Part shown: piece by piece, positions 1,263 through 12,662 of the stretch
Position numbering within the stretch: position 1 is the stretch's first letter
Layout: each line of letters begins with the position of its first letter
Origin: Alphaproteobacteria bacterium
Lineage (GTDB): Bacteria; Pseudomonadota; Alphaproteobacteria; CAAHEQ01; UBA3637
Assembly (NCBI GenBank): GCA_017650375.1
Contig: JAGCFA010000060.1
Coordinates: 1-32,977, forward strand
Length of the DNA: 32,977 bases
Reading direction: 5' to 3'
Position numbers and translations under genes: made by a program
The notes under the pieces: model-generated
What the model was told of the DNA's origin: nothing
Databases searched by the model: none
What the model saw: only the letters and a program-made list of their open reading frames with translations

Positions 1263-4200
1263 ATGAGCAAAAAACATTCTGAATCCGGTCGTAGCTTATT
1301 AGAAATTGTCGTTGTTTTAGGCATCGTTGCTTTATTGATGATTATCACTTCATTGGGATATAGTTTCATTTCATTAAAGTATCGTGAAAAAGAATCTGTC
1401 AAGCAGGTATCCGAATTGGCGGTGCGTTATAAATTGAATCCCGTTAAACCAAAAGAAGGTAAAAAAAGAATCCCCCTTAAAACAATCTATCCGGAAGCTG
1501 TTTTAACCGAAGCTAGTGAAGCTTTAGTAACACCAGATACAACATCAACACGCGTTTATTTGCAACCATATGAGGAAACATCTGCTTTCAGTATCGTTGT
1601 CAATCAAACTTTACCAGGGACATGTGAAGAGTTATTGGAAAGCGGCGAATACGATATGGTCGTGTTTAAAGAAGGAGTATCCATTGAAGAGGCTTTAACT
1701 ACCCAAGGCGAAACAGAAAAAAACGCTTTCAGTCGGGATTATTTAATGAGCCCTGAAGGCAAGGAATTAATTCAAAAAATATGTGCACAAGAAAAAGAAA
1801 CAAAAAAAGTTACCGGTTTAGGATTGGTCTTTGACAAGCGCTGTCCTGGATTAGGAAAGAGCTTTTGGTACAGAGGTCAATGTTGGAACTGCCCCATTAC
1901 ACAGGTACAAGATATTCATGGTGCTTGTTGTTCTTCCTTGAATGAATGTGGTGTCTGCCGTTGTCCTAATGGTGCTTGTAAAACAGAAACAAAAACTTGT
2001 GTGGAATGTGTTAACGATGCTAATTGTGCCAATAATTCAAAAGGACATAGGTGTGACACAACAACAAACAAATGTGTTTCCTGTCTTGCAGATAGCGATT
2101 GTGCGGAAGGATCTTATTGTACATCCGGTCATACCTGCGTCCAATGTGATACGTTGGACGAAAAAAAACATCTGCTTTGGAATTCCAAAACTGATGAATG
2201 TGAATGTGCTAAACCTTTGTTAGCTCTTGGGCAAGACTGTGAAGAGGAGACAAATTGTTGTGGCACGGGTTTAACATGCCATGAGGGTATTTGTAATGAA
2301 TGTTGGGAACACAAAGGCCCACAACCAAAAGTAGGCGCATGTAATAGTGCTGATTTCCCTATTTGTAAACCAACTGGAAATGGTGCAAATAAATGTGAAA
2401 GATGCCCTCAAACACCAACCGCTATTGGTGACGAATGCTACGAAGTATGTGGAGGTTGTTCTGCAGCTGTCAATTTGACTTGCGATACAACACGAAATCA
2501 ATGTGTTTGCAGTGACAATTTACATTGGAATGGTGTACGTTGCGTCGAATGTACTGAAAATAGCCATTGCCCCACTGGAACAACTTGTAGTGTCACTGGT
2601 TCCTGTGAAGGCTGTACAGCTAATTCTTCCTGCCCCAGTTGCCAGGCTTTAGATCCGACAAAGCCGTATTGGGATGGAACAAAGTGTATCGAATGTTTCG
2701 CAAATGGACCAGAAGGCGGATGTGTCGATCCAACAAAACCACGTTGTAATTTGACAACAAATGTTTGCGAACCTTGTCCGACTACTGCTCCAAATTGGGA
2801 TGGAACAAAGTGTGTTGAATGCGTCAACAACAGTCATTGTCCTGTAGGAAAAACATGTGATATAACAAATTCTTGCAAAGACTGCGCAATCAATTCTTCC
2901 TGCCCCAGTTGTCTGGCTTTAGATCCGACAAAGCCGTATTGGGATGGAACAAAGTGTATCGAATGTTTCGCAAATGGACCAGAAGGCGGATGTGTCGATC
3001 CAACAAAGCCACGTTGTAATTTGACAACAAATGTTTGTGAACCTTGTCCGACTACTGCTCCAAATTGGGATGGAACAAAGTGTGTTGAATGTTCAGAACC
3101 AAGCCATTGCCCTGCGGGTAAAACTTGTAATAGTTCAAATTCTTGTGAAGATTGCGCAATCAATTCTTCCTGCCCCAGTTGTCTGGCCCTGGATCCTGAA
3201 AAACCATATTGGGATGGAACCCAATGTATTGGGTGTTCTGCAAATGGACCAGCCGGTGGTTGTACTGAAGAAAAACCTGTATGTAATAAAGAGACAAAAG
3301 TTTGTGAACCTTGTCCAGCAGAAACACCTAACTGGAACGGATTGCGGTGTTTGGAATGTTTTTCTCACAGTCATTGTGCTGATCGAACAGATGGGCGCGT
3401 AACTTGTGATATCAACAGTCATATGTGTATTGAATGTCCGGATAATGCTTCCGGTGTACCGACAGATCAACGTATTGGTTTAACGGCATGTTATTGTCGT
3501 CCTGGTTATGTCGTCAACAGCATCGGTACAAAATGTGTTGAAAATTGCTTTTCCGATGTTGACTGCGCAGGCCGGACGGATGGAAGCACCTCATGCGATC
3601 TACAAACACATCGTTGTGTAAGCTGTCCAGAAGGATACTTCATGGAAAATGGTTCATGTAAGACCTGTGGAACAGACAGAAATTGCGTTTGTAACCGTTA
3701 TGGTTTATCCCCTTGGACAGCCGGAGCTAGTTGTGGAAAAGGGAAAAGCTTATATGTCACATTCGAAGGATATTTAATCTTGGATAAAGATGTAACAGAA
3801 ATCGGTCAAGGTCAAGGCTGTCGCACGGGAACATTGACTTTGACTTCTGAAGAAACAGGGGAAGTTTTCACAATTCCCGCGAAAGGGTATTCCGATGCAT
3901 ATAAACCATTCAAAGTTAACTTGAAAAAAGGTGTCTATAAAGCCGTCCTTCAGACAAATCATGCAAAAGGGATGGAATTTTGTTATCCATCTTATGATTC
4001 CAATTTGGGATATGCAGCAATGTGTACAGGAAAATACTATAAGGTCTGCCCTAAAGGAACTTTCTTAGATACCGGATCAAATATGTGTGTTAATTGCTTA
4101 AGTGACTATGGCACTGGAGAAGAAGGAGCTTGTGCTAATTTATCAAAACCATGGTGCAATCCGTCCAGCAATTCTTGCGAAGCTTGCTCGGCCAATAAAC

Positions 4201-5006
4201 CTTATTGGAACACAGCACGACGTGAATGCGTGGAATGTATGTCAGATGCTCATTGCGCTAATCGGACAGACGGAAAAACCATTTGCGATACATCTACAAA
4301 CCTTTGTTTCCCCAAAAATAATCCATATCATCTGGGGCAAACGATTTTTGAATCTGAAACACCAAACACATATTATGTGAACCTCTATCCAGGAATCTAT
4401 GACATAGTCATTGTTGGTGCCGGTGGTGGAAACCGTGGTATTCGTGAAAAGCATAATCATAACTCTGGTACGGGTGCTAGCGGTGGTTCTGGGGCTGGTT
4501 TTGTCGGAACAATTACTGTTACTAAAGCTAAAAATAACGTAGCCGTTCATGTTGGAAAAGGTGGAAAATATAAGTTCACTGACCAGTGTTGCGTTGGTGA
4601 AAAAGCAACAGATGGAGAAGCTTCAAGCATTTCTGGAATTATTTCTTGTCCTGGTGGAATGGCAGGAAGTGTTCAGAGCGACTATAATCAAGCTACTGCT
4701 GGTACGGGCGGATCTGCATGTACTATTTCAGGCAAGGTTGTTTCAAGCTTAATAAAAAAAGCAGGATCAACAGGTCATACTGGTTCTGCTAAGAAATCAG
4801 GTAATCTGACGGCTGTTCCTGGAACGACATCCGTTGTCAGCAACTTTGTTCCCAATAACAATGGGGGTACTCCAGGATTCTGTGCCGGATGGTGGATGAA
4901 TGGGATGTATGAAGCGGGTCAACACAGTTGTGGTAGTGGTTTAACGAATACTTCCATGACAGATAGTCCTTCTGGATACGTTAAGATTATCTATAAAGGT
5001 AATTAG
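1263..5006 (+). CDS. giant prepilin-like, Cys-rich repeat surface protein with Gly-rich C-terminus
   Basis: A 1247-residue protein. The start at 1263 is chosen because AAAGGAGG precedes it by a few bases; the longer frame from 1137 overlaps the HNH gene. Residues 1-30 are a type IV prepilin leader: a short basic stretch, then ESG|RSLLEIVVVLGIVALL, with Gly at -1, Glu at +5 and a hydrophobic helix, but Arg instead of Phe at +1. Residues about 30-190 resemble a pseudopilin-like body. Residues about 195-825 are very Cys-rich, EGF-like or keratin-like repeats built on W(D/N)GT(K/R)C(I/V)EC and (R)TDGxxxCD motifs, including 270-bp tandem repeats. Residues about 828-910 form a beta-rich spacer, followed by more Cys modules. 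Residues from about 1020 are a Gly-rich domain (VGAGGG, GTGASGGSGAG, HVGKGGKY) like those of adhesin or tail-tip proteins. An envelope-anchored adhesin or minor-pilin tip is likely; the function is inferred. Confidence 0.8.
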   Translation: MSKKHSESGRSLLEIVVVLGIVALLMIITSLGYSFISLKYREKESVKQVSELAVRYKLNPVKPKEGKKRIPLKTIYPEAVLTEASEALVTPDTTSTRVYLQPYEETSAFSIVVNQTLPGTCEELLESGEYDMVVFKEGVSIEEALTTQGETEKNAFSRDYLMSPEGKELIQKICAQEKETKKVTGLGLVFDKRCPGLGKSFWYRGQCWNCPITQVQDIHGACCSSLNECGVCRCPNGACKTETKTCVECVNDANCANNSKGHRCDTTTNKCVSCLADSDCAEGSYCTSGHTCVQCDTLDEKKHLLWNSKTDECECAKPLLALGQDCEEETNCCGTGLTCHEGICNECWEHKGPQPKVGACNSADFPICKPTGNGANKCERCPQTPTAIGDECYEVCGGCSAAVNLTCDTTRNQCVCSDNLHWNGVRCVECTENSHCPTGTTCSVTGSCEGCTANSSCPSCQALDPTKPYWDGTKCIECFANGPEGGCVDPTKPRCNLTTNVCEPCPTTAPNWDGTKCVECVNNSHCPVGKTCDITNSCKDCAINSSCPSCLALDPTKPYWDGTKCIECFANGPEGGCVDPTKPRCNLTTNVCEPCPTTAPNWDGTKCVECSEPSHCPAGKTCNSSNSCEDCAINSSCPSCLALDPEKPYWDGTQCIGCSANGPAGGCTEEKPVCNKETKVCEPCPAETPNWNGLRCLECFSHSHCADRTDGRVTCDINSHMCIECPDNASGVPTDQRIGLTACYCRPGYVVNSIGTKCVENCFSDVDCAGRTDGSTSCDLQTHRCVSCPEGYFMENGSCKTCGTDRNCVCNRYGLSPWTAGASCGKGKSLYVTFEGYLILDKDVTEIGQGQGCRTGTLTLTSEETGEVFTIPAKGYSDAYKPFKVNLKKGVYKAVLQTNHAKGMEFCYPSYDSNLGYAAMCTGKYYKVCPKGTFLDTGSNMCVNCLSDYGTGEEGACANLSKPWCNPSSNSCEACSANKPYWNTARRECVECMSDAHCANRTDGKTICDTSTNLCFPKNNPYHLGQTIFESETPNTYYVNLYPGIYDIVIVGAGGGNRGIREKHNHNSGTGASGGSGAGFVGTITVTKAKNNVAVHVGKGGKYKFTDQCCVGEKATDGEASSISGIISCPGGMAGSVQSDYNQATAGTGGSACTISGKVVSSLIKKAGSTGHTGSAKKSGNLTAVPGTTSVVSNFVPNNNGGTPGFCAGWWMNGMYEAGQHSCGSGLTNTSMTDSPSGYVKIIYKGN
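2622..3431 (+). repeat. three tandem 270-bp (90-residue) repeats inside the surface protein gene
   Basis: Copies begin at 2622, 2892 and 3162, each with AATTCTTCCTGCCCCAGTTG. Copies 1 and 2 are almost identical at the DNA level over their first 200 bases (2622-2821 and 2892-3091). The third copy is clearly related but diverged. Each 90-residue unit starts NSSCPSC and holds PYWDGTKCIEC, a CxxxTxxVCEPC segment and NWDGTKCVEC. The period is a multiple of three, so copy-number change would keep the frame. Confidence 0.9.
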
Positions 5007-12189: not shown

Positions 12190-12659
12190 ATGGAACAATT
12201 TGAATCCGGTCGGTCTATGCTGGAAGTATTGGCAATGTTGGCGATTGCCGGCATCATTGGTGCCGGTGGCGTTGGTGGATATACAGTGGCAATGAACAAA
12301 CATCGCGCCAATGAATTGATTCATGAATCCGCTGGACGGGCCTTGGCTGTGTCACAACAACTGGCGGTGGGCAGAAAATTGGATGAGATAGATTTCGGGG
12401 ATATCCGAACAATGATACAGGGCATGGGAAGTTTGCAGATAAGCCGATTCCTTTGACAGGGGGCGATTTCTTTAAAATCCCCATTACAGGAATGGATCAA
12501 GCTGGCTGTAACGCCCTTTATCCAGAAGGTTGGTTTAGGACTAATTATGGCGAGTGCTATTCGTGCTCTTACGAGAATGCTCCTTACACCAGCAAGGCCG
12601 AATGCGATAAGTGCGGTGCCTTACGCTACCAAGATGGCACTCATTGTTGGAAAAAATAA
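12190..12659 (+). pseudogene. prepilin-like Cys-rich protein interrupted by a -1 frameshift
   Basis: The first frame (12190-12456) encodes a prepilin leader FESG|RSMLEVLAMLAIAGII with Gly at -1, Glu at +5, and a pilin-like helix ending MNKHRANELIHESAG. It reaches TGA after GMG-SLQISRFL. The other frame continues from about 12426 as GKFADKPIPLTGGDFFKIPITGMD and ends at 12659 with a Cys-rich tail (GECYSCSYEN, CDKCGALRYQDGTHC). One missing base in GGGAAG near 12426-12431 (GGGAAAG expected) would join both frames into about 156 residues. The tail resembles the WDGTKC modules of the giant protein. A sequencing error, real decay or programmed slippage are all possible. ACGGAG precedes the ATG, and TTGACT at 12125 may be its -35. 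Confidence 0.72.
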
Positions 12660-12662
12660 AAT

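Follow-up and report, generated by a model that had tools for sequence, protein, structure and literature searches.

A giant modular prepilin with a Cys-rich stalk as a candidate exchangeable tip adhesin of type IVb pili in an uncultured alphaproteobacterium

In the 32,977-nucleotide contig analysed here (JAGCFA010000060.1, hereafter the window), positions 1263-5006 of the forward strand encode a giant prepilin which we interpret, with a probability of roughly two in three, as a type IVb minor pilin of modular build that would display a tip adhesin on a disulfide-bonded stalk. Most likely it belongs to a group of adhesive tips that the cell can exchange on its type IV pili, and the best reading of its architecture is that of a new, extreme form of the known modular type IV pilins. 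The genome to which it belongs (0.9 Mb, 92% complete, 94 contigs) was examined through searches and selected contigs.

The reading frame is intact from the ATG at 1263 to the stop codon at 5004-5006 and encodes 1,247 amino acids, exactly as the preliminary description of this DNA had placed it; all features of the gene given below are on the forward strand. Upstream of it are a ribosome-binding site, AGGAGG (1252-1257), and a promoter-like element of the sigma-70 type, TTGTAA-17-TATAAT (1204-1232), identified by consensus match only, with agreement at 10 of 12 positions and a TG before the second hexamer. The stop codon of the preceding gene, named by eye as HNH-type and without a Pfam match, lies 31 bases before the start. 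The computed mature protein has 1,238 residues, a mass of 132 kDa and 121 Cys, with a density of mostly 6-10 Cys per 50 amino acids between residues 200 and 800. The frame is not the product of chance, since homologues of its N-terminal module are present in 10 other genes with the same G-1, E5 and Cys positions and its leader is shared by around 20 genes of the genome.

By sequence and structural model, the N-terminal ~205 residues of the protein are a genuine type IVb pilin module (aa 1-205, 1263-1877), delimited by alignment, profile, AlphaFold and Foldseek and containing the conserved Cys121 and Cys174. It starts with a class III leader, MSKKHSESG (1263-1289), with predicted cleavage after G9, and the junction with the mature sequence, MSKKHSESG|RSLLEIV, has G at -1, E at +5 and then a hydrophobic tract, which is the only strongly hydrophobic stretch of the protein. 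In an alignment of 11 sequences of the genus, G-1, E5, Cys121 and the first Cys of the stalk are invariant. AlphaFold, run on this alignment, modelled the module as a 49-residue alpha-1 helix (aa 10-58, 1290-1436) plus a beta head, with a pLDDT of 79.7, and the best two of 78 PDB matches obtained with Foldseek were the TCP pilin of V. cholerae (probability 0.96) and the type IVb pilin of S. Typhi (0.51), with a modest E-value of only 0.04. A profile derived from the same alignment and run against 385 genomes of the class retrieved, from other families, pilins that stand alone and have mostly 150-250 aa; three of these short pilins were examined and matched PilS/Bundlin far above the cut-off. 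The stand-alone pilins found by the profile, the PilS/Bundlin matches and the type IVb matches in the PDB lead us to accept the base as an authentic type IVb pilin module. Its giant tail seems to be an addition made within the family to which the window belongs. The Pfam N_methyl model scores below its cut-off in the giant prepilin (13.6 versus 21.2 bits), and undoubted short pilins of the same and related lineages likewise miss this cut-off. The type IV prepilin leader proposed in the preliminary description is upheld by the G-1/E5 signature, by the pilin-like model and by the relationship of the module with stand-alone type IVb pilins.

The genome contains both a prepilin peptidase, encoded near the end of a contig, and pilus assembly genes, whose absence would have argued against a pilin. 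An uncleaved membrane anchor, the other reading that the preliminary description set against a pilin, would still agree with the sequence. The assembly genes form one cluster in contig C65, which contains TcpQ, a secretin lipoprotein, PAP_PilO, a protein taken as PilP-like from its position only, the assembly ATPase and T2SSF, and corresponds to a PilL/N/O/P/Q/R-like type IVb arrangement. PAP_PilO was detected in 35 of 40 genomes of the family, and in 26 of the 27 good ones. The giant prepilin gene is outside the pilus cluster; pilin genes are dispersed over the genome, and no prepilin gene was found inside the cluster in this genome or in the clusters inspected in ten relatives. This dispersal away from the cluster, the fact that the hydrophobic helix is the sole membrane segment and the great length of some members of the set (1,732 aa) would all fit a protein located at the surface or in the periplasm, outside any filament, for which the pilin helix is a mere inner-membrane anchor or a pseudopilus-like export handle. 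We consider this unlikely, given that the pilin module is conserved as a whole, and not just its helix, that it is homologous to stand-alone pilins elsewhere, that E5 is invariant and that nearly all genomes of the family have a pilus machine.

Other genes were observed in the surroundings of the pilus cluster. Genes of virion type for portal, capsid, tail and terminase, recognized by eye, adjoin it in this genome (L037, contig C65, 508-9286) and in two further members of its genus (L183, L184), and divergent TrbC/VirB2-type small pilins are located next to it in most of the genomes inspected (L037, 18314-19115, with a Pfam match; L183-L188, assigned by eye elsewhere). In a further contig, C78, a 1,690-aa repeat protein whose end is VirB10-like precedes a DotB/VirB11-type ATPase (L087, 6-6078), an arrangement that by eye resembles a portion of a Dot/Icm-type secretion system.

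The pilin base is followed by a Cys-rich stalk (aa 206-820, 1878-3722), defined by its Cys count and by the NCBIfam model TIGR04201 (Myxo_Cys_RPT), which matched five stretches of the protein (3.6e-8). Three 90-aa repeats can be distinguished in it (aa 421-690, 2523-3332), including a 270-bp tandem duplication, and copies 1 and 2 have ~97-100% identical DNA in their distal halves, which points to a recent duplication or to gene conversion. A Cys-poor intercalated module (aa 821-933, 3723-4061) separates the stalk from a second Cys-rich stretch, apparent in the sequence (aa 934-1015, 4062-4307). The Cys-rich modules noticed in the preliminary description are thus confirmed, while their designation as EGF-like has to be withdrawn: no Pfam EGF profile matched at E<=1, whether the whole protein or pieces of it were searched, and the repeats correspond to TIGR04201 instead.

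The remaining part of the protein is a Gly-rich domain (aa 1016-1247, 4308-5003), with 41 Gly within the last 205 amino acids. When isolated, this domain gave a weak match, above the cut-off, with PF21722 Gly_rich_2 (27.8 bits, cut-off 24.3; E 3.2e-6), in line with the Gly-rich C-terminus described previously; the match was not recovered in Pfam searches with the whole protein or the whole genome. It also matched a phage tail protein group, PHROG 863, at 6.8e-8, and domains of the Gly_rich_2 kind sit at the tips of phage fibres. No relatives of this end were found among 42 other genomes of the order, nor in a scan of viral contigs or by tblastn against phages, and the full giant prepilin scanned against the genome contigs gave no relatives either. 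PDB sequence searches with the Gly-rich end, and with the vWA-like and C74 ends of other prepilins, returned nothing useful. As indicated by the above-cut-off PF21722 match and the TIGR04201 repeats, the modules added to the pilin base are not pilus-specific. A tip adhesin of the PilY1/PilC type was also considered and discarded, there being no Pfam match with the C-terminal PilY1 beta-propeller. The earlier proposal of a pilus-tip adhesin, or of a surface fibre anchored through its pilin helix, is supported as far as the pilin base, the machine and the PF21722 and phage-tail matches are concerned, and fails in the EGF label.

The preliminary description had missed that the giant prepilin belongs to a genome-wide and family-wide set. 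Around 20 prepilin-like starts with a GR[ST]xxE leader are present in the genome, and the lengths of the closed prepilins, counted from the Gly at -1, include 1,732, 1,239, 893, 757, 578 and 403 residues. The pilin base was matched in 38 of 43 genomes of the family and in all ten other members of the genus, most of them with frames of 850-1,350 aa. Of 111 prepilins encoded at 79 loci of named genomes, 110 have Arg at +1. These loci come almost exclusively from uncultured Alphaproteobacteria, mostly from the guts of ruminants, rabbits and other animals; the group is probably the order designated RF32 in GTDB. The search for relatives sharing the architecture revealed a set of giant prepilins across the genus, with ends that differ: when the individual segments were compared by BLAST with 18 sister proteins, 16 of these contained the base and several contained Cys stretches, and none had the intercalated module or the Gly-rich end. 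The C-terminal region of three sisters from the genus has the DxSxS...T...SDG spacing of a vWA domain, and a low-confidence model of it (pLDDT 53) gave Foldseek matches that were nearly all of vWA fold (TRAP, MIC2, integrin, SpaC); other ends resemble C-type lectins or LamG by eye, without profile support. The longest of the closed prepilins listed above, in contig C40 (L031, 8091-13286, reverse strand), has 1,732 aa, 178 Cys and the same kind of leader; no ATG lies close to this leader, and the probable start codon is TTG. The EGF label would be correct for this protein, which has 13 EGF_Teneurin repeats (4.4e-47). In the literature we came across no account of pilins from this lineage; an expansion of pilins is known in Elusimicrobium.

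The window itself contains a second prepilin-like gene (12190-12660, forward strand), starting MEQFES|GRSMLEV, whose frame stops after ~80 codons and is followed by a downstream frame encoding a Cys-rich end that resembles the end of the 1,732-aa protein. It is a broken small pilin gene. With such a neighbour, an assembly in 94 contigs and tandem repeats prone to mis-assembly, one could ask if the giant prepilin gene is itself decaying, or an assembly chimera, and devoid of function. This is highly improbable in view of its uninterrupted 1,247 codons with a promoter-like site and a ribosome-binding site, and of the homologues with intact frames of 800-1,300 aa in most members of the genus.

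We propose that the leader would be removed by the prepilin peptidase and that the base, with its 49-residue alpha-1 helix, beta head and two conserved Cys, would enter the filament. By analogy with CofB/TcpB and PilB, insertion would most plausibly take place at the tip, where a subunit of such bulk would be accommodated best. Grafted on the base, a stalk of ~800 residues made up of small Cys-rich repeats would carry the Gly-rich domain, and this phage-tail-type end may bind the surface of a partner. The large folded chain would have to pass through the secretin. A single machine would serve a set of pilins with a conserved base and different ends, resulting in different adhesive tips. Location of the protein along the shaft, or its secretion as cargo by the pilus machine in the manner of a T2SS, would be alternatives to a single tip subunit, and TCP-type machines do secrete proteins as well, such as TcpF of V. 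cholerae (PMC9565799). Neither seems at all probable to us: a leader and a retained alpha-1 helix are typical of filament subunits and not of cargo, and a 132-kDa subunit in the shaft would protrude or clash, as reasoned for CofB/TcpB (PMC5207764).

The 121 Cys of the giant prepilin raise the question of the route by which they would be oxidized where neither DsbB nor VKOR is found. DsbB was not detected in this genome, which is ~8% incomplete, by searches that recovered 6 of 14 controls, and VKOR, as a substitute for DsbB, was not detected in 40 genomes of the family by searches that recovered 3 of 14 controls. These results were obtained despite the many very Cys-rich exported proteins encoded.

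Among known systems, the Cys repeats are shared with myxobacterial TIGR04201 proteins such as TraA, in which, to our knowledge, no pilin leader is involved; the NCBIfam TraA model itself is far below its cut-off in the giant prepilin (14 versus 750 bits). In the Kil/Tad system of Myxococcus, several interchangeable large-pilin tips are used on one pilus, with performance differing on target cells, according to the available part of the report (PMC12075869); these are Tad-type pilins, another class, and in that part a Cys-rich stalk is not described for them. PilV of the R64/TP114 conjugative thin pili (PMC9045228) belongs to the same PilL/N/O/P/Q/R-like cluster class and also combines a constant N-terminal pilin part with a variable C-terminal binding part. 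It has ~415-460 residues, 345 of them constant and 69-113 variable, and its variation arises from a shufflon that works by DNA inversion (PMC9045228), whereas each variant found here has a chromosomal gene of its own, at a dispersed location. Next to the giant prepilin gene, inversion sites were looked for and not detected, the only candidates being one 17-nt pair with 82% complementarity, at the level of chance, and a palindrome located in a different gene. A broader picture, possible but doubtful as a whole, would be that of a family of small-genome, mostly animal-gut alphaproteobacteria in which one type IVb pilus is equipped with dispersed giant disulfide-stalked exchangeable tips, as a static equivalent of the PilV shufflon, oxidized by a pathway other than the recognized DsbB and VKOR ones.

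CofB and TcpB, with ~500 residues, are less than half the size of the giant prepilin. They are type IVb minor pilins too, with a pilin domain, a linker and extra disulfide-stabilized C-terminal domains, and have been proposed to be at the tip, but their C-terminal folds are different and they have no long Cys-repeat stalk (PMC5207764). In PilB and PilC of Streptococcus sanguinis, a short pilin module is likewise joined to a C-terminal functional module (vWA, lectin) whose location has been modelled at the tip, and ends of the vWA type are also found in the sisters of the giant prepilin. However, PilB has 454 residues (PMC8179133), compared with 1,238 in the mature giant prepilin and ~1,730 in a sister. 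In addition, the base and the end of the giant prepilin are separated by a long Cys-rich stalk, and the protein goes with the type IVb machine of a diderm. The 2021 census of modular pilins by Raynaud et al. (PMC8179133) recorded 264 architectures and required annotated domains and a leader motif visible to databases; as this lineage often misses the N_methyl cut-off, giant pilins may have been under-counted in it. These proteins would provide test cases for the amount of folded protein that can be carried by a type IVb secretin and by a pilus tip, and would make modular pilins a main surface strategy of an uncultured lineage, extending the modular-pilin idea well beyond the 860 residues of the most extreme protein in that census.
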